Part shown: positions 2,235 through 15,714 of the stretch, in pieces
How the letters are laid out: each line of letters begins with the position of its first letter
Position numbering within the stretch: the stretch's first letter is position 1
Origin: Candidatus Iainarchaeum sp.
GTDB taxonomy: Archaea; Iainarchaeota; Iainarchaeia; Iainarchaeales; JAXPJC01
Assembly (NCBI GenBank): GCA_018304445.1
Contig: JAGVWD010000015.1
Location: forward strand, 1 to 15,714
DNA length: 15,714 nucleotides
Direction of reading: 5' to 3'
Program-made: the position numbers and the translations under genes
The notes under the pieces: generated by a model
What the model was told of the DNA's origin: nothing
What the model saw: only the letters and a program-made list of their open reading frames with translations
Databases searched by the model: none

Positions 2235-2729
2235 TTGAAGGAAATAAGGATTCATGGTAGAGGGGGGCAGGGCGCAGTTACCACTTCGCAGCTGCTTGCG
2301 ATTGCAGCATTCCACGATGGGAAAAGGGCGCAGGCATTCCCTGCATTCGGGGTGGAAAGGCGCGGAGCTCCTGTGCAGGCATTCACGCGCATTTCTGATG
2401 GGGAAATAAAAACCCGGCAGCAGGTTTATGAGCCGGATTATGTCATAGTGCTTGATGCGAGCCTGCTTGCAAGCGTTGATGTTGCGGACACTGCGCACAC
2501 AATAAATGTTACAAAGGCTGCGCTTGATGTAATTGGGAAGCCGTTTGTGAATACGGGGATTATTGGGGCATTTGCGGGATTGACAAAAGAGCTTTCGCTA
2601 AATGCGCTTGAGAAGGCAATTGATGAGAGGTTTGAAGGAAAGGTGGAAGTTGCCGAGAAGAATAAGCAAGTGATAAGGCTGCTCTATAGCCAATGCACGG
2701 AGCTTGGAAAATGCAAAATAAAAAAATAA
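2235..2729 (+). CDS. porG: Pyruvate:ferredoxin oxidoreductase, gamma subunit
   Basis: The protein has 164 residues, near the usual ~180 of archaeal PorG. The N-terminus carries GRGGQG at residues 8-13, the hallmark of the gamma domain of 2-oxoacid:ferredoxin oxidoreductases, followed by AFPAFGVERRGAPVQAFTRISD, which is highly conserved. The gamma subunit joins PorA, PorB and PorD in the complex that interconverts pyruvate and CoA with acetyl-CoA, CO2 and reduced ferredoxin; in the single-chain enzymes the equivalent domain contributes to CoA binding. The start is TTG at 2235. It fits the family N-terminus exactly, there is no in-frame ATG upstream, and a TATA-like box lies at the right distance. 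It is the first gene of porG-porD-cutA-porA-porB. Its end overlaps porD by 19 bases. Confidence 0.93.
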   Translation: MKEIRIHGRGGQGAVTTSQLLAIAAFHDGKRAQAFPAFGVERRGAPVQAFTRISDGEIKTRQQVYEPDYVIVLDASLLASVDVADTAHTINVTKAALDVIGKPFVNTGIIGAFAGLTKELSLNALEKAIDERFEGKVEVAEKNKQVIRLLYSQCTELGKCKIKK

Positions 2730-3001
2730 ATAAAGGGCATAAATTGCTTATTGGCGCGGTTATTGACGAGCCGGGAAGCAGCGAAAGGAACAAAACAGGC
2801 GGCTGGCGCACCTTCATTCCAATAATTGACCAGGAAAAATGCATAAAGTGCGGAATATGCTGGATGGATTGCCCGGACATGGCAATAAAGAAAAATCCGA
2901 ACGGGACATTCACTATAGATTATGCGTTCTGCAAGGGCTGCGGAATATGCGCAAAGCAGTGCCCCACAAAGGTAATAAGCATGAAACTGGAGGGGAAGTA
3001 A
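2711..3001 (+). CDS. porD: Pyruvate:ferredoxin oxidoreductase, delta (ferredoxin-like) subunit
   Basis: The protein has 96 residues from the ATG at 2711. An in-frame ATG at 2693 would add six residues, but GGAG at 2699-2702 sits 8 bases before 2711 and favours the shorter form. The family signature GGWRTFIPIID (30-40) precedes two bacterial-type ferredoxin motifs: Cys44, 47, 50, 54 followed by Pro, and Cys74, 77, 80, 84 followed by Pro. These bind two [4Fe-4S] clusters that pass electrons from the PorB cluster to external ferredoxin. All eight ligands are present. It overlaps the end of porG by 19 bases and is followed after one base by cutA. Confidence 0.95.
   Translation: MQNKKINKGHKLLIGAVIDEPGSSERNKTGGWRTFIPIIDQEKCIKCGICWMDCPDMAIKKNPNGTFTIDYAFCKGCGICAKQCPTKVISMKLEGK
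2989..2995 (+). promoter_or_regulatory. Strong Shine-Dalgarno sequence for cutA
   Basis: GGAGGGG lies 7 bases before the cutA ATG and inside the last codons of porD. It contrasts with the operon's first gene, which has no Shine-Dalgarno sequence, so internal genes here appear to be read by a different initiation mode from the leaderless first gene. Confidence 0.6.
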
Positions 3002-3002
3002 A

Positions 3003-3326
3003 ATGAAAATGGTTTATGCGACTTTCAAGGACGCGAAGCAGGCCGAGAAAATTGTCAATTCCCTCCTTAAGCAGAGGCTCATTGCGTGCGCGAACATAAT
3101 TCCGAACATAAAAAGCAGCTATTTGCATAAGGGAAAGATTGCAAATGCGAAGGAAGCCGCGGCAATAATGAAAACCGCGGATGAGAAGATTGATGACGTT
3201 ATAAACGAAATAAGGAGAATGCACTCATATGAAGTTCCTGAAATAATTTCATTTGAAATTGCGAAGGGAAATGCGCAATACATGGACTGGATAATAAAAG
3301 AGGTAAGGAAGAATGAAAAAGGTTGA
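3003..3326 (+). CDS. cutA: CutA1-family protein (divalent ion tolerance type)
   Basis: The protein has 107 residues, the usual CutA size. Conserved features seen: an N-terminal strand MVYATF, then KDAKQAEKIVNSLLKQRLIACANI (the helix and strand with the family's single conserved Cys), and near the C-terminus HSYEVPEIISFEI, the family's most conserved block. CutA proteins are compact trimers with a ferredoxin-like fold. They were linked to copper and other divalent-cation tolerance in Escherichia coli, but their true function is unsettled. Here the gene sits inside the por operon between the delta and alpha subunit genes, 1 base after porD and overlapping porA by 14 bases. Co-expression with an oxygen- and metal-sensitive Fe-S enzyme is therefore likely; a functional link is inference. 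Confidence 0.92.
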   Translation: MKMVYATFKDAKQAEKIVNSLLKQRLIACANIIPNIKSSYLHKGKIANAKEAAAIMKTADEKIDDVINEIRRMHSYEVPEIISFEIAKGNAQYMDWIIKEVRKNEKG

Positions 3327-4458
3327 AAGTGCTGCTGCAGCAATTGCTGAAGCGGTTAAGTTGTGCGATGTGAAGGTAATGCCAATGTATGCAATTACTC
3401 CAAGCACATTAATTCCTGAAAGATTGAGCGAGTTTGTGAATAATGGCGAAATGGATGCCGAAATGATTCATGTGGAATCAGAGCACAGCGCCGCGAGCGC
3501 GATGATTGGAAGCATTTTATGCGGGGCAAGGAGCTTTACTGCCACTGCTTCCCAGGGGCTTGCGCTTATGTTTGAGATACTTCCGATAATTTCGGGATTG
3601 CGCCTTCCCGCGGTAATGGCTGTTGCAAACCGCTCACTAAGCGCACCTCTGAACATATGGAATGACCATTCGGATTCTGTAAGCGCAAGGGATCAGGGCT
3701 GGATACAATTATATGCTGAAAGCGCGCAGGAAGCATTAGATACGACAATACAGGCATATAAAATTGCTGAGAATGTGAACGTACTGCTGCCCGTGATGGT
3801 CTGCATTGATGGTTTTACGCTGAGCCATGTTTATGAGAATATTGATGTTCCGGAAAAGGCGCAAGTTGGGAAATTCCTTCCCGCTTTTGCGCCGGAATAT
3901 GCCCTTGACCCTGAAAGGCCATTGACCTTTGGTCCTATTGTTTTCCCTGATTCTTTCATGGAATTCAAGAAGGCGCAGGAGGAGGCAATGGAAAATTCAG
4001 CAAAGGCAATTGCAAAAGTTAATGATGACTTTGGGAAAATGTTTGGCAGGAAATACGGGAACGGGTTGGTTGAAACCTACAAAATGGATTATGCGGAGCA
4101 TGCAATCCTGGGAATTGGGACTTTATGCACAACAGCGAGGAGTGTTGTGGATAAGCTGCGCGCAAATAAAATCAAGGCGGGCTTAATAAGAATCAGGTGC
4201 TTAAGGCCATTCCCAAAAGAAGAACTGCAAAAGCTTGCAAAAAGGCTGAAAACAATTGCGGTAATTGATAGGCATATTTCTCTTGGATTTGAGGGCGCGC
4301 TTGCAACCGATGTGAAATCCGCTCTTTCTGAAATGAAAAATAAGCCTTCCATTTCAGGCTTTATTGCGGGATTGGGGGGAAGGGACATTACTGAAAAACA
4401 TTTGGAATATGCGCTTAAGCAGGGCATGCAGAAAAAAGCAGGTGGCTGGCTCTTATGA
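3313..4458 (+). CDS. porA: Pyruvate:ferredoxin oxidoreductase, alpha subunit
   Basis: The protein has 381 residues, typical of archaeal PorA (about 380-400). YAITPST at 26-32 corresponds to the substrate- and ThDP-site loop of the single-chain enzyme, and the Glu-rich VESEHSA at 54-60 corresponds to the loop holding the Glu that activates thiamine diphosphate. The pyruvate-type signature LNIWNDHSD with [11 protein letters not shown], followed by [15 protein letters not shown], favours pyruvate over branched-chain or 2-oxoglutarate enzymes. The C-terminal part (about 255-370) is the transketolase C-terminal-like domain, with [16 protein letters not shown] at 3300-3303 lies before the start, and the gene begins inside cutA (14-base overlap). 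The TGA overlaps the porB ATG as ATGA (4455-4458), which couples the two catalytic subunits that share the ThDP site. Confidence 0.95.
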
Positions 4459-6467
4459 TAGCGGGATTGCCAGAAGAGGAATATTTTGCTTCTGGGCACA
4501 GGGCATGCGCTGGCTGCGGGGAAATACTTGCGGTAAGGCATGCGCTCAAGGCTTCCGGGAAGAATACAATTGCTGTAATGGCAACCGGGTGCATGGAGGT
4601 TGTTTCAACCCCCTATCCTGAAAGCTCATGGAAAATCCCCTGGGTGCACGGCGCATTTGAGAACCATCCCGCAATTGCATCAGGGGTTGATGCTGCATTG
4701 AAAGCTTTGGGAAAGCGCGATAAAATCAATCTGCTTGTTTTCGGCGGGGATGGCGCTTATTTTGACATTGGATTCCAGGCGCTGAGCGGAGCATTGGAGC
4801 GCGGGCACAAGGCGACTTATATCTGCACTGACAACGAGGCGTATATGAACTGCCTTGCGCTTTCAACCGAAATTCAGACCAAGGAGGGGTTGAAGAAAAT
4901 TACTGAAATTAAAAAAGGAGATTTGGTTTATGCGTTTGACCAGAAGAATCATGAATTGGTTCTGAAAAAGTGCTCAGGAGTTTTTGATAACGGCAAAAAG
5001 GAAGTTTTTGAGTTAAACACGCTGCATCACACAATTAAAGCAACAAACAATCATCCCTTCCTTACAGTGCAAAAAAGAGGCAGAGGTAGGGAAAATCTTC
5101 TTGTTTGGAAAACTATTGCCGAGCTTAAAAAGGGAGACCAGATAATTGTCTTAAAGAATTTAAGCGGTGAAAATTCTTTCAATTTCAAGACGGTTAAGCT
5201 ATCGCGGATTGGTGATTTTAAAGTGAATAGGCTCAACAACGTAAGGTTGCCATCCGCTTCCAGCCCTGACCTGATGGAGTTTATGGGAATTTTCACAGGC
5301 GACGGATGGACTAGGCTTACAAAAGGAGAAATTGGTTTCGCTTTGCCTGAAGGAAAGCAGGCAAGAGGCAGGCTCCTAATGCTTCAGGAGAGGCTATTCG
5401 GTCTGAATCCAAGGCTCGATAAGAATTATATCTATTTTAATTCAGTTAATCTGGTTAGGTTTATTGATTCATTGGGATTTAACCTTCCCGCCAAGAAAAA
5501 AACAGTTCCGGCGTGGGTTTTTACCCTGCCTGCTGATGAAAAGGAGGCCTTTGTTAGGGGGCTTATGCTTTCAGACGGCTATAAAATTGGGAACAGTTCA
5601 AGGATTGTTTCGGCAAGCTTTGAGTTGCTGAAAAGAGTGCGCTTGTTGCTGCAGACAATTGGTTATAGGGTCGGAAAGATCCATAGACAGAAAAAAGAAA
5701 AAGGAACTTATTGCGTTTATAGGAAATTATTGAAAGATTCAGAATATGGCTACATATGCTTCAGCCAGCGCAGCGAATGGGATATTGGAAAATATCAAAG
5801 CGAATATAAGTATCAGAATTTTCTGATTGGAAATAAATATTTCGAAACAGAAAAACTGCAGGGCATAAAATCTGTCGGAATTGAGCCTACGCTTGATTTA
5901 AGAGTGCAGGATGAACATAATTTCATTGCTGACGGAATAGTTGTGCATAACACAGGAATACAGCGCAGCGGGGCAACTCCTCCATTCGGCGCAACAACAA
6001 CTTCCCCTGCGGGAAAGAAAATCCACGGGAAGCAGCAGGCGAAAAAGCCGCTTCCGCTTATTGTAGCAGCGCATGGGATAAGATATGTTGCAACTGCAAG
6101 CGTTTCAAACATCCTTGATTATTATAAAAAGGTGCAGAAGGCGCTTGCAACCGAAGGGCCGAGTTTCATTCATGTATTTACCCCCTGCCCCATAGGATGG
6201 TATCATGACAGTGCGGATGCAATAGAAATTGCAAAACTTGCTGTTGATTGCAGAGTGCAGCCAATTTATGAAATTGAGAATGGTGCGCTTAAATTCACAA
6301 ACAAGATTGAGAATCCAAAGCCTGTTGCGGAATATTTGCAAAAACAGGGGAGATTCAAGCATTTGGGCGCTGATGAAATTAGCGCTGTGCAGAAATATGT
6401 TGATGAGCGCTATAATTTCCTGCTGGAGCTTGAAAAGCAGAAAAGGGCATTTGATGTTCTGCTGTGA
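4455..6467 (+). CDS. porB: Pyruvate:ferredoxin oxidoreductase, beta subunit, interrupted by an intein
   Basis: The 670-residue reading frame is a 303-residue PorB (132 N-terminal plus 171 C-terminal residues) split by a 367-residue in-frame intein. The extein length matches normal PorB (about 290-330). PorB binds thiamine diphosphate and the [4Fe-4S] cluster next to it. Visible ligands are Cys18 and Cys21 in ACAGCGE, Cys46 in ATGCME, and Cys578 in TPCPIGW of the precursor (Cys211 after splicing). The ThDP/Mg motif starts with GGDGAYFD (about 96-103) and ends with DNEAYMN (126-132) before the intein. It resumes with [11 protein letters not shown] (500 on), restoring the canonical [17 protein letters not shown] block. 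The start overlaps porA as ATGA. The stop is only 9 bases from the end of convergent purB. The enzyme can be active only if the intein is removed, because the break lies inside the cofactor site. Confidence 0.96.
4851..5951 (+). mobile_element. Intein with LAGLIDADG homing endonuclease domain, inserted in porB
   Basis: There are 367 residues between Asn132 and Thr500 of the PorB precursor. Splicing block A starts at Cys1 ([10 protein letters not shown], with [11 protein letters not shown] after it). Block B has Thr65-Asn-Asn-His68 followed by PFLTV. Block F is [15 protein letters not shown] (348-362), and block G ends VVHN, with penultimate His366 and terminal Asn367. The next extein residue is Thr, an accepted +1 nucleophile. 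This is a complete class 1 set. The central part has two LAGLIDADG-type motifs about 90 residues apart, MGIFTGDG (145-152) and VRGLMLSDG (235-243), each with its acidic residue (Asp151, Asp242), so endonuclease activity is plausible. Hand counts of single 60-base lines give about 32-33% G+C inside (5401-5460, 5821-5880) against about 55-57% in nearby extein lines (4801-4860, 6001-6060), consistent with acquisition by homing. Confidence 0.96.
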
Positions 6468-6476
6468 ATATAAGTA

Positions 6477-7853
6477 TTAGAGTTTTAGTTCGCCTTTCCA
6501 ATGATTGCAGATTTTCTCTGTTTTTTCCGCTGCAATGCCAATATATTTTTCAGGATTTTCAATTATTTCTTTCTGCTGTTCTGTAAATTTTTTCAAATAA
6601 GATTGCAGTGATGCATCTTCCAATGCCAACTCATTCAATTTTTTTCCATTCTTGCCTGCATCAAGCGTAAGCTTTTTCACATGCTCATGCGCATCAGGAT
6701 GCCCGTAAAATGCAAGCAGGATGTATAAAGGCTCTGCAACAATCATTTCCTTGCTCTTGTTGAAATTCTCAATCATTCTGCTGGAATCAATTGCCAGTTT
6801 GCCGCATGTCCTGTTGAGCCTTTTCACTGCTTCATTCAAGCCTGCGATTATTTCCCCTGTGAAGCGCTGGGAAGCTGAATTTGTCAAATCGCGCTGATGT
6901 TCTGAAATCTGGTCCAAATAAACTGTAATTATGCGCGGCATAAATTGCTTATAAAGGCTTTTAACATTCTCAAAGTTGATCGGATTCCTTTTGTGGGGCA
7001 TTGTGCTGCTTCCCACTTGTTTTGCCTCAAAGGCTTCTCCGACTTCTGCAATCTCGCTCCTCTGCAGGTTGCGCATATCATCTGCAAGATTTGCCAAAAC
7101 CGAAAAGCAGGAAATAAGCGCATGAATTAAATCAGCAATTGGCTCAGGCTCTGCAATTTGAGTTGATGCTTCGGAAACTTTTAACTGTAGCTCATCCATT
7201 ATTTCTTTTTCAAATTGCAATGGGTCAGAAACAAGCAATGAGCTCGCATTGTAAGCTCCGACAGCGCCAGAGAATTTTCCTGCAAGCTCATTTGCAGAAT
7301 TTTCAATTGTTTTGATTCTCTTGCCAAGCCTGCTTACATAATAGCTTAGGGCAAAGCCGAATGTTATGGGCTCTGCATGCTGGCCATGGGTTCTGCCCAT
7401 CTGCAGGGAATTTTTATAGGCCAAAGCCAGTTCTATTAGGGTTTTTTCCAATGCATTGAGATTTGGAATTAGCACTTCTTTAACAGCATCTTTATAGCGG
7501 AGGGCATTTGCCGTATCAACAATATCATAGGAAGTAGCGCTGAAATGCGCATAGGGCTTTGCCTTTTCGCTTACCTTATTCCTTATGCAGTTTACTAGTG
7601 CTCTAATATCATGCTTTGTAATTGCCTCTTCAGCATAAACCTCCTGCGCATTTATTGTTTCCGCTGCCTTTGCAATTTCATCTGCAGTTTCTTTTGTGCA
7701 AATGCCCCTCTTTGCAAGAACCCTTGCAAGCGCTGCCTCAACCCTTGCTTCATAGCGCACTCTGGCATTTTCACTTAGGAATTCCTGCAGGGCTTTATCT
7801 GCATACCTGTAATCAAGCGGCGAAATCGCATCAAAGGAATCAATGTTTGGCAT
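6477..7853 (-). CDS. purB: Adenylosuccinate lyase
   Basis: The protein has 458 residues, typical of the archaeal and Bacillus-type enzyme (about 430-460). It cleaves SAICAR to AICAR plus fumarate (step 8 of IMP synthesis) and adenylosuccinate to AMP plus fumarate. Seen in the chain: SPLDYRYAD at the N-terminus, the conserved HFSATSYD block (103-110), GRTHGQHAEP with the catalytic His156 region (153-162), and the fumarase/aspartase superfamily signature GSSTMPHKRNP (281-291), which holds the flexible catalytic Ser loop. It is the last gene of the purM-purE-purC-purB operon, 4 bases after purC. It ends 9 bases from the convergent porB stop, leaving almost no room for separate terminators. Confidence 0.95.
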   Translation of the reverse strand: MPNIDSFDAISPLDYRYADKALQEFLSENARVRYEARVEAALARVLAKRGICTKETADEIAKAAETINAQEVYAEEAITKHDIRALVNCIRNKVSEKAKPYAHFSATSYDIVDTANALRYKDAVKEVLIPNLNALEKTLIELALAYKNSLQMGRTHGQHAEPITFGFALSYYVSRLGKRIKTIENSANELAGKFSGAVGAYNASSLLVSDPLQFEKEIMDELQLKVSEASTQIAEPEPIADLIHALISCFSVLANLADDMRNLQRSEIAEVGEAFEAKQVGSSTMPHKRNPINFENVKSLYKQFMPRIITVYLDQISEHQRDLTNSASQRFTGEIIAGLNEAVKRLNRTCGKLAIDSSRMIENFNKSKEMIVAEPLYILLAFYGHPDAHEHVKKLTLDAGKNGKKLNELALEDASLQSYLKKFTEQQKEIIENPEKYIGIAAEKTEKICNHWKGELKL

Positions 7854-7857
7854 ATAC

Positions 7858-8823
7858 TCACTTATTTAACCCATCAAGAAAATTTTTATAGGAATCTACA
7901 ACTTCCCCAATGCTTGGGGCATTCCAAATTCTTTCATTTATCCATGCTTCGCATACTGATTTGTACATGTTGCTGACAATTTCAATTAATTCCTTTGGCA
8001 ATTTTGGTGGCTTTGGCCATGTTTCTTTGGGCTTGCCGGATTCCTTTGCGGAAATCATCTCATTCGCCCAGGGCAGGGTTTTGTAATAATCGCGCAAAAC
8101 CTGCTTGCTTATGTGCATGTTATGAAACAGCATCCTGTCCTCATCAAGCGTGCCGAAAACATCAACAAGCATCAATTCTTTTTTGGGGGTAACTGCAAAT
8201 TCCACTTTTCCATCAGCGTGCTCCAATCCTATTTCTTCCGCTCTTCTATTCAAAAATTCATTTATTTTCAGTGCGGTTTGTTTTAGTTCGGCAAGCTGCT
8301 GCCCTGAAATTTTTGCCATTTCCCTGGCTTCTTCCCAGTTCAAGTATCTGTCGCCAAGCTCAAGCTTTGTGGAAACGTCCATTATTGGCTTTGCAAATTT
8401 CTCCCCAGGCTCCGGCACATGGTCCAATCCCAGGTCCTCAAATTTCAATTCTCCTTTTTCGAGGCGCTTGAAGACGCTGCTTCCTGCGGGAAGCGAATTC
8501 CTGTAGATTATTTCAAGCGGAACCAAATAGTTTGCTGTTTCAGCTGAAATTTCATTCTTTTGCGGATATAGGACCCTTACAAGATTTACTTCCATTTCAT
8601 TCCCTTTCAAAAGCCTTCTGAAGTGTGTTTTAATTCCAAGTTTTTCTAGCTCCTTAAAATTGTATGCTGCCGTCCTACAGAGCGCTTCGCCTTTTCCTGG
8701 AATTTCATCCGGCATTTTCCCATAATCAAATACGCTGTAATCATCTGTGAAATGGAAAATGCCAATTCCTGTCTCATTTTCCCTAGGTTCTTTCTCTACG
8801 GTCAAATCCTTTACTGAGCCCAT
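7858..8823 (-). CDS. purC: SAICAR synthetase (phosphoribosylaminoimidazole-succinocarboxamide synthase)
   Basis: The protein has 321 residues. It joins CAIR and aspartate with ATP to form SAICAR, step 7 of IMP synthesis. It is longer than the ~240-residue bacterial PurC and resembles the haloarchaeal-type enzyme: FHFTDDYSVFDYGKMPDEIP (23-42), with the SVFD motif, then LVPLEIIYRNSLPAGSSVFKR for the nucleotide-substrate region, and SKQVLRDYY in the C-terminal half. The ATG overlaps the purE stop as TAATG (1-base overlap) and purB follows after 4 bases, so translation is probably coupled through the operon. The long-form resemblance is from memory of the family and not from an alignment. Confidence 0.92.
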   Translation of the reverse strand: MGSVKDLTVEKEPRENETGIGIFHFTDDYSVFDYGKMPDEIPGKGEALCRTAAYNFKELEKLGIKTHFRRLLKGNEMEVNLVRVLYPQKNEISAETANYLVPLEIIYRNSLPAGSSVFKRLEKGELKFEDLGLDHVPEPGEKFAKPIMDVSTKLELGDRYLNWEEAREMAKISGQQLAELKQTALKINEFLNRRAEEIGLEHADGKVEFAVTPKKELMLVDVFGTLDEDRMLFHNMHISKQVLRDYYKTLPWANEMISAKESGKPKETWPKPPKLPKELIEIVSNMYKSVCEAWINERIWNAPSIGEVVDSYKNFLDGLNK

Positions 8824-9584
8824 TATTGCACCTCCATCCTCTTGCTTTCATTTGCATCAGCCTCAAGCACTTTCCTTTTTGCCTGCCCCCTGTAAGCGCT
8901 TAATGCATTGTCAAACCTTCCATCGCTGTTAAGGAGCTGTATTGCAGCTAATGCAGCATTTTTGCCGTTGTTGAGGCCGACCCAAAAGCCTTTGTTTGAG
9001 AATTGCAGGAGGTTCTGGGCATTTTCCGCGCTTGGAATGAAAATTGCAAGCGCATTGCCAGTTTCAACCGCAGAACTCAAATCACTTGCAGCAATGTAAA
9101 TTTTTTTTTCATCTTCTTTGTCCAGTTCATCTGCTTTTTTATAATTAATCCCAAATTCCTTCAGCAATGCCTCTGCCTTTTCATTGCTTCCAACAACTGC
9201 AATTGATTCAAATTTCCTCAGGGCTTTTGATATCTCGTTATAATTTGAGTTAATTCCCATGCCAAGGACAGGAATTCCTGGCGGCATTTGGTGTATTGAG
9301 AGCAGGGAATCAAGCCCATTGTAATTTGATGCAATCGGAATTCCAATAACCGGCTTTGTTGTAAGCGCTGCAATTGCCCCTGGAAGCGCGGCGCTCAGGC
9401 CCGCGCCTGCAACAATTGCCCTTGCATTTGTTGCTGCAATAATTTTTTCCAATTCTTTCGGGGTTCTGTGGGCGGAGCATATGCGCAGCTCAAATTTGAT
9501 GTTTTCTTGCCTTAGCGCTTCAGCTATCCCCTCATAGATTTTTGCATCCGAATCAGAGCCAAATACAAGCAAAATTTCCGCCAT
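8823..9584 (-). CDS. purE: PurE-type phosphoribosylaminoimidazole carboxylase/mutase with an extra C-terminal half
   Basis: The protein has 253 residues from the ATG at 9584; a TTG two codons upstream (9590) is less likely. Residues 2-111 form a full PurE core: GSDSD (9-13), SAHRTP (37-42), GAGLSAALPGAIAALTTKP (60-78) and GLDSLLSIHQMPPGIPV (90-106). These bind the imidazole ribotide and catalyse the carboxyl shift to CAIR. Where a normal PurE (about 160-170 residues) passes straight to its final Gly-Asn-Ala-Ala helix, this one has about 90 further residues (112-200) before that helix appears as GLNNGKNAALAAIQLL (203-218). The extra part, starting IAVVGSNEKAEALLKEFG, has the strand-helix rhythm of a second PurE domain without its active-site motifs. 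Whether it uses N5-CAIR (needing PurK) or AIR plus CO2 cannot be decided; no purK is in the window. It overlaps purC by 1 base. Confidence 0.92.
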   Translation of the reverse strand: MAEILLVFGSDSDAKIYEGIAEALRQENIKFELRICSAHRTPKELEKIIAATNARAIVAGAGLSAALPGAIAALTTKPVIGIPIASNYNGLDSLLSIHQMPPGIPVLGMGINSNYNEISKALRKFESIAVVGSNEKAEALLKEFGINYKKADELDKEDEKKIYIAASDLSSAVETGNALAIFIPSAENAQNLLQFSNKGFWVGLNNGKNAALAAIQLLNSDGRFDNALSAYRGQAKRKVLEADANESKRMEVQ

Positions 9585-9607
9585 ACCCAAAAAAACTCCC
9601 CTAAAGA

Positions 9608-9634
9608 ACTAACGAACAAAAAATTAAAAATGAA
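9608..9634 (-). promoter_or_regulatory. T-rich tract between purM and purE
   Basis: On the - strand the sequence after the purM stop reads TTCATTTTTAATTTTTTG, and the purE ATG follows about 25-40 bases later. An oligo-T tract can end transcription in archaea, and the same AT-rich block could also act as a TATA element for purE. The gap is 50 bases, against 1-4 bases elsewhere in the operon, so purE-purC-purB may be partly independent of purM. Both readings are inferred. Confidence 0.35.
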
Positions 9635-10666
9635 TCAGTTGATTTCAACACCCCTGTTCCCTTTTGCAATTCTTCCAATTTCAATTGCCTCTTCATTAAG
9701 CGCTTTTAACTTTTTGGCTATCTTTTCTTTCTCATGCTCGGCAACAATGAGCGCTAATCCTATTCCCATGTTGAATGTCCTAAACATGTCCCTCTCAGGA
9801 ACATTCCCAATCTGCTGTATTTTCCTGAAAACCGGCGCAATGGGAATCTTTGATTTTTCAATTTTTGCGCATAACCCTTCAGGTAGCAACCTTTCAATGT
9901 TGTCATAAAGCCCTCCGCCTGTTATGTGGGCAATCCCGTGCAGTTCGGCAATGCCCATCAATTCCTGAATCGTGCTGGAATAATTCCTGTGCGTTCTGAG
10001 AAGCTCCTCTCCCAAGGTGGAATTAAACTCATCAATTCTTTCATTTACGCCAATTTTTGCAATTTCAAAGAAAACCTTCCTTGCAAGCGAATAGCCATTT
10101 GTATGCAAGCCGTTGCTTTTCAATCCAATCAAGGCATCCCCGGAAGCGATTTTGCCGCCAGTGATTATTCTTTCTTTTTCCACAACTCCAACAATGCAGC
10201 CTGCAAGGTCTGTCTCGTTTTCCAAATAAACCCCGGGCATTTCTGCTGTTTCGCCCGCAACTAATGCAATATTGCTTTCCCTGCAGGCCTTTGCCATGCC
10301 GCTTATGATATGCTCCACTACTTCAGGGGAGAGTTTGCTTGATGCAATATAATCAAGAAAGAAAAGAGGTTTTGCCCCGCATGCCGAAATGTCATTGCAG
10401 GAGTGATTTACCAAATCAATCCCGATTGTATCCCATTTATTGCATAGTGCGGCAATCTTTGTTTTTGTGCCAACGCCATCAATGCTTGAAATCAGCACAG
10501 GAAACTTCATCTTTTTAATTTCTGTTGCGGAGAAGGCGCCGCCAAAAGCGCCTATATCAAGCAGTACATTCCTATTGAATGTGCTTCTGACATGCCCTGC
10601 CATGCGCTTAACCGCTTCATTGCCTGCATTGATATCAACGCCTGCATCCTTGTATGTGATTGCCAT
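9635..10666 (-). CDS. purM: AIR synthetase (phosphoribosylformylglycinamidine cyclo-ligase)
   Basis: The protein has 343 residues, the normal PurM length. It closes the imidazole ring of FGAM to AIR with ATP, step 5 of IMP synthesis. The N-terminus (YKDAGVDINAGNEAVKRM) and the ATP-site block SIDGVGTKTK (61-70) are classic. Further matches are GIDLVNHSCNDI, the PurM-type NDI motif, followed by the central LVAGETAEMPGVY and GLKSNGLHTNGYSLAR. It belongs to the same ATP-binding superfamily as PurL. It is the first gene of purM-purE-purC-purB and is transcribed divergently from purL. The ATG at 10666 has no Shine-Dalgarno sequence. Confidence 0.96.
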   Translation of the reverse strand: MAITYKDAGVDINAGNEAVKRMAGHVRSTFNRNVLLDIGAFGGAFSATEIKKMKFPVLISSIDGVGTKTKIAALCNKWDTIGIDLVNHSCNDISACGAKPLFFLDYIASSKLSPEVVEHIISGMAKACRESNIALVAGETAEMPGVYLENETDLAGCIVGVVEKERIITGGKIASGDALIGLKSNGLHTNGYSLARKVFFEIAKIGVNERIDEFNSTLGEELLRTHRNYSSTIQELMGIAELHGIAHITGGGLYDNIERLLPEGLCAKIEKSKIPIAPVFRKIQQIGNVPERDMFRTFNMGIGLALIVAEHEKEKIAKKLKALNEEAIEIGRIAKGNRGVEIN

Positions 10667-10736
10667 TTCTTATCGCAAGAAGAATTCATTACAATTCTAA
10701 TTAAAAAGATTTCACATTTCCAATCTATGGGTTTTG
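10667..10736. promoter_or_regulatory. Divergent promoter region of the two purine operons
   Basis: This is the 70-base gap between the purM and purL starts. CTAATTAAAAAGA at about 10698-10709 is the best TATA-like element for both directions, centred about 34 bases from the purL ATG and about 37 from the purM ATG, which predicts very short leaders. ATTC/GAAT repeats occur nearby (GAATTCATT at 10682-10690, AATTC at 10693-10697), but I see no clear operator. It is too short for a riboswitch. Confidence 0.45.
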
Positions 10737-13706
10737 ATGGGAGTTAACAGAATTGAGATTGCCTTAAGGCAGGGCTTCAGGGATGCGCTTGCGGAATCAA
10801 CAAAAAGACGCATGCATGAGGATTTGGGCCTGGAAGCAAAGACTCTAAGCACAATACAGGTTTTCACAACAGATGCTGAATTAAATGAAAATGAAATTAG
10901 AAAAATTGCGGATGCGTTTGCAGATCCGGTTATACAGGAATATAAAATAAATGCCCCTGCTGCAAATTCTGCATTTGATTTTGCCGCTGAAATCGGCTTC
11001 AGGCCTGGAGTAACTGACAATGTTGGAAGAACGGCAAGGGAAGCCATGGAATACATCGTTGGAAGAAAATTAACGCAGAATGAAGCGGTTTACACTTCAA
11101 CGCAGTATCTGTTCGGCGGCAGTCTCTCAAAAGAACAAATTGCGCAGGTTTGTTCAGGCCTGCTCTGCAATGAGCTGATTGAGCGCTGGGAGGTAAAAGG
11201 CAGGGAAGAGTTTGGAGAAAAGGGATTTGAAGCAAAAGTGCCTAAAGTCAAGGAGGATTATGCAGTGAATGTCAGGGAAATAAACCTTGACGTCAGCGAT
11301 GGGGAACTGATGAAAATTTCAAAGGAAGGCGTGCTTGCCCTGAATCTTGAGGAAATGAAGGCAATAAGGGATTATTTCAAAAACAAGGGAGTAATTGAAA
11401 AAAGAAAAAAGGTTGGTTTGAGCAGCAAGCCGACTGATGTTGAATTGGAGGCATTGGCGCAAACATGGAGCGAGCACTGCAAGCACAAAATATTCAATGC
11501 CAGGATAAGATATAATGAAGGGAATAGAATTGAGGAAATAGATTCGCTGTTCAAAATATATGTAAAATCCCCGACAGAGAAAATAAAGAAGGATGTTAAT
11601 TGGCTGCTGAGCATTTTTTCCGACAATGCAGGGGTAATAAGGTTCAACAAGGATTCCTGCATTGCAATGAAGGTTGAAACCCATAATTCCCCTTCAGCAT
11701 TGGACCCTTATGGCGGCGCAATTACCGGAATTGTGGGAGTGAATAGGGATCCCATGGGAACAGGAAAGGGCTGCAGGCTTATATTCAATACTGATGTTTT
11801 CTGCTTTGCAAATCCCTACTGGAAAGGGGACTTGCCCCCAAGGATGCTCCATCCGAAAAGGATTTTTGAGGGAGTGCGAAAAGGCGTTGAGCACGGGGGC
11901 AACAAAAGCGGCATTCCTACAGTTAATGGCACGCTTGTTTTCGATGACCGCTATAGGGGAAAGCCACTTGTTTATTGCGGCACAGGAGGAATTATGCCAT
12001 ATAAAATAAGGGGCAAGCCTTCCTGGAAAAAGGAAAGCAATCCGGGGGATTTGATTGTAATGTGCGGAGGCAGAATCGGAAAGGACGGAATCCATGGAGC
12101 AACATTCTCTTCAGAGGAGCTGCATGAAGGTTCTCCCGCCACAGCAGTTCAAATTGGCGATCCAATTACGCAGAAAAAGATGCATGATTGCTTGTTGGAA
12201 GCTCGCGACTTGGGATTGTACAATTGCATAACTGACAATGGCGCTGGCGGCTTAAGCAGTAGTGTTGGGGAAACTGCTGAATTCAGCAATGGCTGTGAAA
12301 TGCATTTGGAAGAAGCTCCGCTGAAATATGCAGGCCTGCAGCCCTGGGAAATTCTTCTTTCCGAGGCGCAGGAAAGAATGACCTTGGCTGTGCCGAAGAA
12401 GAATGAGAAATCTTTAAGGGAATTGTGCATCAAACACGGAGTTGAAATGACTGTTCTTGGCACATATAAAAATACAGGAAACTTCCATGTGCTTTATGAT
12501 GGAAAAACTGTTGCCTATATTGATATGGATTTTATGCACAAGGGCCTGCCAAGAATGCATTTAGAAGCAGAATGGGAAAAACTAATTCATGAAGAGCCTG
12601 ATTTTGCAGAGCCAGCTGATTTAGCCGCTGAACTTAAGTCATTGCTCTCTTCGCTCAATGTCTGCTCAAAGGAATATGTTGTAAGGCAGTACGATCACGA
12701 AGTGCAGGGAAGCAGCATTGTAAAGCCGCTTACCGGAGCTAAAAACGATGGCCCAAGCGATGCTGCTGTGTTAAAGCCTATTTATAATTCCTGGGAAGGC
12801 CTTGTAATTTCAAATGGCATAAACCCGAAAATCAGCGATATTGACACTTACGACATGGCAGCAAATGCAATTGATGAAGCGCTTAGGAATGCTGTTGCTG
12901 TTGGTGCAAATCCTGAAAGAATTGCGCTGCTTGACAATTTCTGCTGGTGCGACCCCATTTATGACAGGGAAAAAACGCCTGACGGGAAATACAAGCTTGC
13001 GCAGCTTGTAAGGGCGTGCAAGGCATTGCGCGATTATTGCATTGCATTCAAAACGCCTTGCATCTCCGGCAAGGATTCAATGAAAAATGACTATAAAATC
13101 GGCAATACAAAAATAAGCATTCCTCCAACGCTGCTTATTTCTGCATTGGGAAAAATGGATGATGTTAGAAAGGCTGTTACAATGGACGCAAAGAATGTCG
13201 GAGATATTGTGTATATCCTTGGGGAAACAAAAAATGAATTGGGCGCCTCGGAATACCTTGCCTTGAAGGGATGCATAGGCAATACTGCGCCAAAGGTAAA
13301 TGCAAAAACCGCACTTAAACTCTATAAGTCGCTGTACAAGGCAATCAGTGCAGGCTTGGTCGCAAGCTGCCATGACATTTCAAACGGCGGCATTGCTGTT
13401 TGCGCTGCAGAAGCGGCATTTGCAGGCATGCTTGGAATGCAAATTGATGCAAGGAAAATCCCCTCTGATGGAATCAAAAGAGATGATTACTTGCTGTTTT
13501 CCGAAAGCGCCTCGCGCTTTATTGTAACAATTGCTGAGCAAAAGAAAAATAAATTTGAAAAAATTATGAAAGGGAATGTTTTTGCTGAAATTGGGATTGT
13601 AACAAAGGGGCCTAAATTTGCTGTAATTGGACTGGATGGAAAGGAAGCTATAAATGCAGGCATAAATGAATTAAAGCAGGCATGGAAAAAAACATTGGAC
13701 TGGTGA
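10737..13706 (+). CDS. purL: FGAM synthase, synthetase subunit with fused PurS-like domain
   Basis: The protein has 989 residues from the ATG at 10737; a TTG one codon earlier is possible. With PurQ it converts FGAR, glutamine and ATP to FGAM, step 4 of IMP synthesis. Domains: residues 1 to ~150 hold two PurS-like halves, each a strand with a helix (IEIALRQGFRDALAES and, from about 85, IGFRPGVTDNVGRTAREA). A linker domain follows at about 180-240. Then comes TWSEHCKHK (243-251) with the conserved His, ETHNSPSALDPYGGAITGIVGV for the first ATP-binding half, GGRIGKDGIHGATFSS and DNGAGGLSSSVGE, and a second AIRS-like repeat from about residue 620 to the end. There is no C-terminal glutaminase; it is supplied by PurQ 4 bases downstream. 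Length and fusion differ from the small bacterial and archaeal PurL (about 720 residues with a free PurS). Confidence 0.95.
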   Translation: MGVNRIEIALRQGFRDALAESTKRRMHEDLGLEAKTLSTIQVFTTDAELNENEIRKIADAFADPVIQEYKINAPAANSAFDFAAEIGFRPGVTDNVGRTAREAMEYIVGRKLTQNEAVYTSTQYLFGGSLSKEQIAQVCSGLLCNELIERWEVKGREEFGEKGFEAKVPKVKEDYAVNVREINLDVSDGELMKISKEGVLALNLEEMKAIRDYFKNKGVIEKRKKVGLSSKPTDVELEALAQTWSEHCKHKIFNARIRYNEGNRIEEIDSLFKIYVKSPTEKIKKDVNWLLSIFSDNAGVIRFNKDSCIAMKVETHNSPSALDPYGGAITGIVGVNRDPMGTGKGCRLIFNTDVFCFANPYWKGDLPPRMLHPKRIFEGVRKGVEHGGNKSGIPTVNGTLVFDDRYRGKPLVYCGTGGIMPYKIRGKPSWKKESNPGDLIVMCGGRIGKDGIHGATFSSEELHEGSPATAVQIGDPITQKKMHDCLLEARDLGLYNCITDNGAGGLSSSVGETAEFSNGCEMHLEEAPLKYAGLQPWEILLSEAQERMTLAVPKKNEKSLRELCIKHGVEMTVLGTYKNTGNFHVLYDGKTVAYIDMDFMHKGLPRMHLEAEWEKLIHEEPDFAEPADLAAELKSLLSSLNVCSKEYVVRQYDHEVQGSSIVKPLTGAKNDGPSDAAVLKPIYNSWEGLVISNGINPKISDIDTYDMAANAIDEALRNAVAVGANPERIALLDNFCWCDPIYDREKTPDGKYKLAQLVRACKALRDYCIAFKTPCISGKDSMKNDYKIGNTKISIPPTLLISALGKMDDVRKAVTMDAKNVGDIVYILGETKNELGASEYLALKGCIGNTAPKVNAKTALKLYKSLYKAISAGLVASCHDISNGGIAVCAAEAAFAGMLGMQIDARKIPSDGIKRDDYLLFSESASRFIVTIAEQKKNKFEKIMKGNVFAEIGIVTKGPKFAVIGLDGKEAINAGINELKQAWKKTLDW

Positions 13707-13710
13707 ACGG

Positions 13711-14550
13711 ATGAAAAAACCAAGCGCATTAGTGCTTACAGGCTATGGAATCAACTGCGATTATGAAACAGAATTTGCTCTGGGAAATGCCGGCTTTGAA
13801 CCAAAGCGCATCCATATAAACGACATTATTTCAGGAAGGGAAGATTTGGATGACTATCACTTGCTCTCCTTCCCGGGGGGCTTCAGCTATGGGGATGATC
13901 TGGGAGCGGGAAAGGCGCTTGCAAATAAAATCCAGAATGCAAAAATTGCAGATAAGAAATTCAACCAGCTTCTGCAGAAATTCATTGATTCTGGAAAGCT
14001 TATAATCGGGATATGCAACGGCTTTCAGATTATGGTAAAACTTGGGCTGCTGCCTGCATTTGGGGAGAAATATTTTGTGCAGGATGTTACGCTTACATTC
14101 AATGATTCCGGCAGATTTGAGGATAGATGGATTAACTTGAAAGCAAATCCTGGAAGCAAATGCATTTTTACCAGGGGAATTGATAAAATTGATTTGCCGA
14201 TTAGGCATGGTGAGGGGAAATTCATTGTTAGGGATGCAATTACATTGCAGCAGCTGAAGGAAAATTCGCAAATAGTCCTGCAGTATGCTGATGAAAATTG
14301 TGTTCCAACAATGTCATATCCGCAAAACCCGAACGGCTCAATTGAAGGCATTGCCGGGATATGCAATGCCTCTGGGCGTGTATTTGGCTTGATGCCGCAT
14401 CCTGAAGCGCACACTTTCTTCTTCAATCATCCGAACTGGACAAGAATCAGGGAGCAGCATCAAAGGCAAGGCTTGAAAATCCCTGAAGAAGGCGCAGGCC
14501 TGAAGGTATTTAAAAACGCCTTTGGGTATGCGGTTGAAAATCTAGTATGA
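13711..14550 (+). CDS. purQ: FGAM synthase, glutaminase subunit
   Basis: The protein has 279 residues, longer than the ~225 of Bacillus-type PurQ. It is a class I glutamine amidotransferase that releases ammonia from glutamine and channels it to PurL. The nucleophile is Cys102 in GICNGFQ, and the other triad members are His230 and Glu232 in MPHPEAH. SFPGGFSYGDDLGAGKALA (53-71) is the family's oxyanion-loop and helix block. The final ~40 residues with FFNHPNW, after the triad, are a C-terminal extension like that of the glutaminase domain in large fused FGAM synthases. This fits the large-type PurL partner next door. GGTGA at 13702-13706 precedes the ATG, overlapping the purL stop. The gene ends 5 bases from the convergent deaminase gene. 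Confidence 0.96.
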   Translation: MKKPSALVLTGYGINCDYETEFALGNAGFEPKRIHINDIISGREDLDDYHLLSFPGGFSYGDDLGAGKALANKIQNAKIADKKFNQLLQKFIDSGKLIIGICNGFQIMVKLGLLPAFGEKYFVQDVTLTFNDSGRFEDRWINLKANPGSKCIFTRGIDKIDLPIRHGEGKFIVRDAITLQQLKENSQIVLQYADENCVPTMSYPQNPNGSIEGIAGICNASGRVFGLMPHPEAHTFFFNHPNWTRIREQHQRQGLKIPEEGAGLKVFKNAFGYAVENLV

Positions 14551-14555
14551 AAAAA

Positions 14556-15020
14556 TTATTTGCTGAATTTCCTCACTTTCACTGCGCTTTCTGAAAGCAA
14601 TTCGCTTGAAAGCTCATCAATTTCCTCATTTTCATAGACCATTTCCCTGATGCCCGCATTTATCAGCTGCTTTGCGCATATTATGCAGGGAAAGTGCGTT
14701 GTGTAAAGTGTTGTGTTTTCAGTTGCAATTCCTGAGTATGCGGCCTGCACAATCGCATTCTGCTCCGCGTGCACTGCCCTGCAGTACTCAAGCCGCTCGC
14801 CTGATTTCAGGCCCTTGCGCTCACGGATGCAATAACCGCGCTCCAGGCAGTCTTCAAGCCCTTTGGGGGCGCCATTATAACCTGTGGAAATTATTTGCCT
14901 GTTCTTAACGAGCACTGCGCCCACTTTCTTCTCCCTGAAGCATGTGGCGCGCTCGCTTGCCACCCTTGCGACCTTCATAAAATACTCATCCCAAGAAATG
15001 CGCTTTTGCGTTTTCTGCAT
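14556..15020 (-). CDS. Deoxycytidylate (dCMP) deaminase family protein
   Basis: The protein has 154 residues from the ATG at 15020; a GTG at 15029 would add three residues (Val-Arg). The zinc site is complete: His84-Ala-Glu86 in HAEQNAI and Cys112 and Cys115 in PCIICAK. The N-terminal part SWDEYFMKVARVASERATC and GYNGAPKGLEDC, and the Cys-rich loop between them and the zinc site (Cys58, Cys64, Cys80), are typical of the dCMP deaminase branch rather than cytidine or tRNA deaminases. The enzyme turns dCMP into dUMP, the thymidylate precursor. It lies 16 bases downstream of purD on the same strand, so a nucleotide-synthesis operon is likely, and it converges on purQ. Confidence 0.9.
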   Translation of the reverse strand: MQKTQKRISWDEYFMKVARVASERATCFREKKVGAVLVKNRQIISTGYNGAPKGLEDCLERGYCIRERKGLKSGERLEYCRAVHAEQNAIVQAAYSGIATENTTLYTTHFPCIICAKQLINAGIREMVYENEEIDELSSELLSESAVKVRKFSK

Positions 15021-15036
15021 TCTGACCACACATAAA

Positions 15037-15714
15037 TTATTTTGCTAATGCCTTATAACCTATATCCTTCCTGAAGTGCATGCCCTCAAAGGATATTTTT
15101 GAAACCGCGGAATAGGCGGAATCAATTGCATTTTTTATGCCGCTGCCAAAGCCTGTTACGCCCAGAACCCTGCCTCCATTTGTTGCTATTTCTTTTTCTG
15201 CATTGAATTTAGTTCCTGCATGGAAAACCGCGGCATCTGGAATTTTTTGCGCAGCTTCCAGGCCATAAATTATTTTTCCTTTCTCATGCGCTTCGGGATA
15301 ACCTCCGGAAGCAAGGACAACGCAGCATGCTGCTCCGCTTGAAAATTTAATTTCTGCATTGCGCAAATTCCCATCAATGCACGCATCTATTGCATCAGGC
15401 AAATCGCTCTGCATCAGCGGCAGGACTGCCTGCGTTTCAGGATCGCCGAAGCGCGCGTTGAACTCAAGCACTTTTGGCTTGCTATTGCAGAGCATAATTC
15501 CTGCATACAAAATCCCTTTATATTCTGCTCCGCTAGCACGCATTGCATCTATTGTCGGCTGCAAAATTGTTTCTGCAATCTCATCCTGCAGCTCCTGCGT
15601 TATTATTGGCGCAGGGGCATATGCGCCCATGCCCCCTGTGTTTGCGCCCAAATCATTGTCATATGCGCGCTTGTGGTCCTGGCTCGGAACCATCGGAACA
15701 ATGTTTTTTCCGTC
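15037..15714 (-). CDS. purD: GAR synthetase (phosphoribosylamine-glycine ligase), C-terminal part
   Basis: The frame is open to the window edge, so only the last 225 residues are seen (full length is usually about 420-440). PurD ligates glycine to phosphoribosylamine with ATP, step 2 of IMP synthesis. The visible part starts in the ATP-grasp domain: SQDHKRAYDNDLGANTGGMGAY, then YKGILYAGIM, and the Mg/ATP block EFNARFGDPETQAVLPLM. It ends with the small C-terminal domain containing VTGFGSGIKNAIDSAYSAV. Key blocks are intact with no frameshift. It is probably upstream in an operon with the dCMP deaminase gene. Confidence 0.95.
   Translation of the reverse strand, partial: DGKNIVPMVPSQDHKRAYDNDLGANTGGMGAYAPAPIITQELQDEIAETILQPTIDAMRASGAEYKGILYAGIMLCNSKPKVLEFNARFGDPETQAVLPLMQSDLPDAIDACIDGNLRNAEIKFSSGAACCVVLASGGYPEAHEKGKIIYGLEAAQKIPDAAVFHAGTKFNAEKEIATNGGRVLGVTGFGSGIKNAIDSAYSAVSKISFEGMHFRKDIGYKALAK

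Follow-up and report, generated by a model that had tools for sequence, protein, structure and literature searches.

A class 1 LAGLIDADG intein, very probably mobile, at the catalytic pocket of the pyruvate:ferredoxin oxidoreductase subunit PorB

Outside PorB, the closest known counterparts of the intein described here are archaeal class 1 LAGLIDADG inteins such as TliVMA (7qss, 7qsu), PhoVMA (7qst), PI-PkoII (2cw7) and PI-PfuI (1dq3), whose identity to it is only 19-24%. By their entry names TliVMA and PhoVMA come from V-ATPases, whereas the host here is an oxidoreductase of central carbon metabolism; the other hosts among these solved inteins we take to be DNA polymerase and ribonucleotide reductase. 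Discussion of inteins usually centres on DNA replication and repair proteins (available part of PMC5874633), and metabolic enzymes are already listed among intein hosts (PMC7765530, in the portion available). The intein of Pyrococcus abyssi MoaA likewise lies in an oxygen-labile oxidoreductase, according to the accessible text of PMC10663303. It occupies another host and another site, and it is redox-gated, whereas the distribution of a cysteine that could serve this purpose in PorB, Cys124, gives gating no support.

A first-pass annotation of this DNA did not count PorB among the commonly listed intein hosts, and this agrees with our searches of the open-licence literature, which turned up no paper that names PorB or PFOR as the host of an intein; an earlier entry may exist elsewhere, for instance in an intein database, a subscription journal or supplementary files. 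In the parts available of PMC12713403, PMC3655853, PMC10643990, PMC4853749, PMC7765530, PMC5874633, PMC2814812 and PMC10663303, PorB is not named as a host. Some JGI records do bear the name 'pyruvate/2-oxoacid:ferredoxin oxidoreductase beta subunit/intein/homing endonuclease'.

The porB precursor and its intein

The window, by which we mean the whole stretch of 15,714 nucleotides analysed, contains on its plus strand a porB open reading frame (4455-6467) of 670 residues whose frame is intact throughout. The proposal that an intein at 4851..5951 splits this PorB is borne out by the sequence, by Pfam and NCBIfam domains and by the predicted fold. The N-extein (residues 1-132, 4455..4850, plus strand) could be aligned to 9bt4_C, 7plm_A and 1b0p_A, and has as landmarks the [12 protein letters not shown] motif (97-100), CTDNEAYMN and, at position -1, Asn132. 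It is followed on the same strand by a class 1 intein of 367 residues (133-499) that runs from Cys1 to His-Asn and encloses a LAGLIDADG homing endonuclease. The N-terminal splicing region of the intein (blocks A and B, 4851..5066, plus strand) matches TIGR01445 at residues 133-204, with the block B TxxH at residues 197-200, where conservation analysis finds T197 and H200 invariant in relatives. The endonuclease domain (residues ~268-419, 5256..5711, plus strand, outer limits approximate) has two motifs, GIFTGDG and GLMLSDG, whose acidic residues D283 and D374 are invariant among relatives; PF14528 (LAGLIDADG_3) covers one stretch of it, 362-419, and residues 248-422 match PI-PkoII (2cw7). Blocks F and [14 protein letters not shown], within residues 481-499, make up the C-terminal splicing region (5895..5951, plus strand), which matches TIGR01443 at 481-500 and PF14890 as far as 499, and the C-extein (residues 500-670, 5952..6467, plus strand) begins with TGIQRSG, in which Thr500 is the +1 residue.

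Thus all of the class 1 splicing blocks that the first-pass annotation had read (Cys1, Thr-x-x-His, the His-Asn end and Thr +1) are present, and they are conserved in relatives. The insert is in frame and is missing from homologues, and joining the exteins without its 367 residues yields a continuous PorB of 303 residues, as had been predicted. TPP_enzyme_C, Intein_splicing and LAGLIDADG_3 each match the reading frame above their Pfam cut-offs. Both terminal intein regions are above cut-off in NCBIfam, where PorB is the top-scoring host model; the joined 303-residue host scores 400.3 bits against an equivalog cut-off of 405 (5 short), and the next model, of VorB type, scores 339. The predicted model of the intein has the HINT fold. 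In this model residues 133-499 superpose on solved inteins starting at residue 1 of those inteins, the extein flanks align with a solved PFOR beta subunit, and the alignment with PI-SceI, PI-PfuI and PI-PkoII, which extends over 311-340 residues, shows the LAGLIDADG fold. The GC content of the intein is 39.9% compared with 43.8% for the window, and only 0.2% of sliding 1101-nt stretches are equally low. This is compatible with a foreign origin, to which it lends little weight because the intein sequence is itself under constraint.

The host is the thiamine diphosphate (ThDP)-binding subunit of a four-subunit pyruvate:ferredoxin oxidoreductase: it has the GDG...DNE ThDP-Mg motif and the beta-subunit fold, and the genes for the remaining subunits adjoin it. 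All three lie upstream of porB on the plus strand as open frames, namely porC (gamma subunit, 2235..2729; PF01558, TIGR02175), porD (2[4Fe-4S] delta subunit, 2693..3001; NF040684 PorD_Arch, 123.3 bits, cut-off 120) and porA (alpha subunit, 3313..4458; PF01855, PF17147 and NF040682, the last at 506.6 bits with a cut-off of 550), the end of porA overlapping the start of porB by 4 nt. A CutA1 gene (3003-3326) sits between porD and porA within the cluster. Beside the por genes, window positions 6477-15693 hold purine biosynthesis genes of purB, purC, purE, purM, purL, purQ and purD type together with a dCMP-deaminase-type gene; the PurL-type protein (FGAM synthase, 10734-13706) shows at its N-terminus, in the same chain, a weak match to PurS (PF02700, 28.3 bits, cut-off 22.2).

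The first-pass annotation had placed the splice site, DNEAYMN/TGIQRSG, in the cofactor loop that follows GDG, and alignment to Desulfovibrio PFOR confirms it. In the PDB-sequence alignment (7plm_A numbering) Asp99 of GDG corresponds to Asp963 and Asn132 to Asn996. According to the available part of PMC5020499, Asn996 of the Desulfovibrio enzyme lines the narrow pyruvate pocket and rotates once pyruvate binds, its counterpart in Sulfolobus OFOR (StOFOR) is Leu123b, and the Mg ligands of StOFOR are GDG (89b-91b) and Asn118b. Since the offset of 9 between Leu123b and Asn132 is the same for Asn118b, the latter equals Asn127 of the window protein. On these equivalences the intein lies directly after a substrate-pocket residue and five residues past a Mg ligand. 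The unspliced precursor is very unlikely to be active. Inteins generally prefer conserved sites (PMC2814812, available part).

We regard it as highly probable that porB carries a mobile class 1 LAGLIDADG intein that splices to give the 303-residue PorB and is capable of homing. Such an element would be inserted between the codons of Asn132 and Thr500, the latter being the Thr that follows Asn996 in Desulfovibrio PFOR numbering, and porB would be translated as a 670-residue precursor. Splicing would employ Cys1, the Thr and His of block B, the His of block F, the terminal His-Asn and the +1 Thr, and would proceed by an N-to-S shift, transesterification to Thr, Asn cyclisation and an O-to-N shift, the established order of class 1 intein chemistry. 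The 303-residue PorB would then assemble with PorA, PorC and PorD, while the freed intein would cut intein-less porB alleles at the conserved stretch and repair would copy the intein across. For the window copy we infer both splicing and endonuclease activity from its sequence, and homing is indicated indirectly by the empty sites and scattered presence described below.

Same-site relatives and other insertion sites in PorB

The database search of the intein region for which the first-pass annotation had called revealed that the PorB intein is far from rare, with 541 matching proteins, of which the best 120 are listed; a query with the N-extein, restricted to proteins of sufficient length for an insert, gave 132 matches (best 120 listed). 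Of 229 proteins retrieved, 176 carry, by pattern, a complete intein at the window's site. All 176 have Cys1, TxxHP or SxxHP, an HN end and a +1 Thr, a uniformity that is partly presupposed by the finding pattern, which already demands NC[LI] and H[NQ][TSC]G; the two LAGLIDADG patterns occur in 147 and 158 of this set. Among the rest of the 229, five had one pattern end matched (one of these, P0060, being complete by parsing of the listed matches), five by pattern plus P0228 by eye have an intein before CxDNE, and 41 matched no pattern and are mostly intein-less PorB fusions or long PorB forms. Two have an intein within GDG; in one of them, P0056, the window's site is occupied too, and this protein is among the 176.

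When one genome per species was scanned with two peptide patterns, 66 same-site loci emerged, which is a lower bound. These carry 18 lineage names and a few are unplaced, the names being taken from titles, which for bins can be wrong. The archaeal names are Diapherotrites/ainarchaeum, Aenigmatarchaeota, Woesearchaeota, Nanoarchaeota, Micrarchaeota, Altiarchaeales, Hadesarchaea, Methanophagales, Bathyarchaeia and Heimdallarchaeota, and the bacterial ones Omnitrophota, Aerophobetes, Cloacimonadota, Poribacteria, Patescibacteria, Vermiphilus, Subteraquimicrobium and Clostridia. The site is identical to that of the window in, for example, Ca. ainarchaeum (L001), Omnitrophota (L003), Bathyarchaeia (L009), Hadesarchaea (L011) and Heimdallarchaeota (L033), and the full-length copies, most of them 365-372 aa, show 49-79% identity and form one allele family with the window intein. 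Unlike the full-length window copy, the inteins at 8 of the 66 loci are mini-inteins of 146-203 residues. One locus (L065) shows the C-extein only and three (L051, L054, L055) start inside the gene. In an ANME-1 locus (L060, 6007-6536) the frame changes between the two halves of the mini-intein, by decay or sequencing error. We found no viral contig with a PorB intein: a scan of IMG/VR produced three pattern matches and zero relatives, an absence that is not proof.

Ten same-site proteins that we inspected all start at a Met just before the intein and are named homing endonuclease (five) or hypothetical protein (five). Proteins such as P0121 and P0123, which start at 'MN|C', might suggest a split gene and trans-splicing; we rejected this, as in the DNA of L001, whose contig agrees with that of P0121 in name and length, the N-extein is encoded immediately ahead of the intein without a break in the frame. 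The same holds at other loci whose contig extends far enough, and we take such starts to be an annotation effect. They carry a warning for annotators, in that the inspected same-site proteins lack the PorB name and begin at the intein. We likewise rejected as broken copies the N-extein fragments of G027, G034 and G035 and the C-part of G015, whose contigs end within the intein.

The active-site stretch of PorB has two further intein sites, so that three sites fall within about 31 residues. A different intein lies inside GDG (GDGA / S-Y/F-DIG) with a +1 Ser in P0015, P0056 and L114 (G063:C39), and P0056 bears both this intein and a mini-intein at the window's site. A third, of ~540 residues and with a +1 Cys, lies just before CYDNE in P0040, P0046, P0109, P0110, P0228 and P0229 (the last assigned by pattern alone). 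With this intein as query, 7992 of the candidates were scored and P0110, P0109, P0228 and P0229 were recovered; P0040 and P0046, with an intein at the same place, were absent.

Mobility of the intein and competing readings

In the order that contains L001, 60 of 75 genomes searched have a PorB match and 15 do not (counted by hand). The gene is uninterrupted at the window's site in 41 of the 60, interrupted there in 13 (four of them known only as contig-end fragments) and interrupted at GDG in one (G063, L114), the remaining five being fragments or weak matches. We built a host tree with 43 rows, namely the 13 filled (window included) and 30 of the 41 empty ones; three filled rows consist of the N-extein alone, and L106 and L112 are points where long branches come together. 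Intein presence on this tree requires 11 changes, nine of them forced by well-supported branches. Shuffled labels require a mean of 11.4-11.5, and presence in that order therefore tracks the host tree no better than chance. Filled and empty neighbours include L024/L101 (support 99) and L052/L095 (support 96).

We also compared intein and host trees for 50 full-length copies, leaving out cut exteins and inteins of <=340 residues. Each topology is rejected when tested on the other partner's data, with a delta lnL of 1386 for the intein topology and 1071 for that of the host, the comparison being between two whole topologies that each have many weak branches. Of 1225 pairs, 1139 are more alike in the intein than in the host, the median identities being 59.3% and 48.1%. 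Transfer of the intein across the family as a whole is well supported. AU tests did not reject a single clade for the eight inteins from the archaeal group to which the window belongs (p 0.374) or for five Woesearchaeota-type rows (p 0.074); given the former value, we do not claim a transfer involving the window copy as proven. An intein-less allele, L089 (G037:C43:2575-3474), groups with the filled L001 and L002 (support 99), and its target reads DTEVYSN-TGA where DNEAYMN-TGV is otherwise conserved, a difference of four changes. It is possibly a homing-resistant allele; this is a single case, and elsewhere its PorB differs to a similar degree.

Decay does occur in this intein family, as the mini-inteins at 8 of 66 loci and the frameshifted L060 attest, and the window copy could in principle be a relic that is merely inherited, either dead for splicing, with PorB lost, or dead as an endonuclease. 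It retains, however, every splicing residue and both LAGLIDADG acidic residues, its 670-codon frame is intact and the remaining por genes are present and open, and we consider a relic very unlikely. That an intein gene was falsely fused to porB during assembly is more improbable still, to the point of being negligible: although the source is probably a metagenome, the identical junction, to the codon, in dozens of separate assemblies, with 4 of the 66 loci on contigs >100 kb, refutes an artefact for the PorB intein family.

Conditional splicing, responsive to redox or temperature, could in addition gate an oxygen-labile enzyme. As an iron-sulphur enzyme, the host complex belongs to anaerobic metabolism. 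Nine residues ahead of Cys1 lies Cys124, which is shared by 48 loci among the 54 (of 66 in all) whose junction fitted the pattern, and in MoaA splicing is blocked when Cys1 forms a disulphide with a Cys of the N-extein (PMC10663303, available part). Yet Cys124 is native to PorB, occurring in 6 of 13 filled and 15 of 27 empty relatives (Fisher p 0.74; 3 of 30 empty relatives were unmatched by pattern). We accordingly rejected a redox switch through Cys124, which is unlinked to intein presence, and think gating improbable because this residue is equally common in empty relatives. There is similarly only a slim chance that a more sweeping picture holds in full, in which the ThDP stretch of PorB is a cross-domain hub of three sites, inteins move between anaerobic archaea and bacteria, splicing gates the enzyme in some hosts and L089 resists homing. 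A mobile class 1 intein that splices and is capable of homing remains the reading we strongly favour.

Dependence on splicing and meaning for PorB biology

Each of the seven filled genomes from the window's group yielded a single PorB, in two pieces that flank the intein. Of 15 further filled genomes from other groups, 13 are without a second match at >=36% identity, and six of these 13 have one weak match (27-31%), which we take to be another oxoacid oxidoreductase; intact second homologues are present in G077 (one, 47%) and G082 (two, 36% each). These counts come from genomes of no stated completeness and the window's own genome is not among them. We infer that a central enzyme depends on splicing; in support, 20 of the 22 filled genomes sampled gave no second PorB-like match.

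Taken together, the PorB intein is ordinary in mechanism, new in host within the searchable literature and unusually wide in spread. PorB inteins constitute a natural data set for homing, with filled and empty sites, mini-inteins, two other insertion sites and one possible resistant target, and they also inform on gene exchange between archaea and bacteria. In many uncultured lineages an intein thus sits at the catalytic pocket of an enzyme that is a gateway of anaerobic carbon metabolism, and cells with a filled PorB and no second PorB would need protein splicing for their pyruvate:ferredoxin chemistry.
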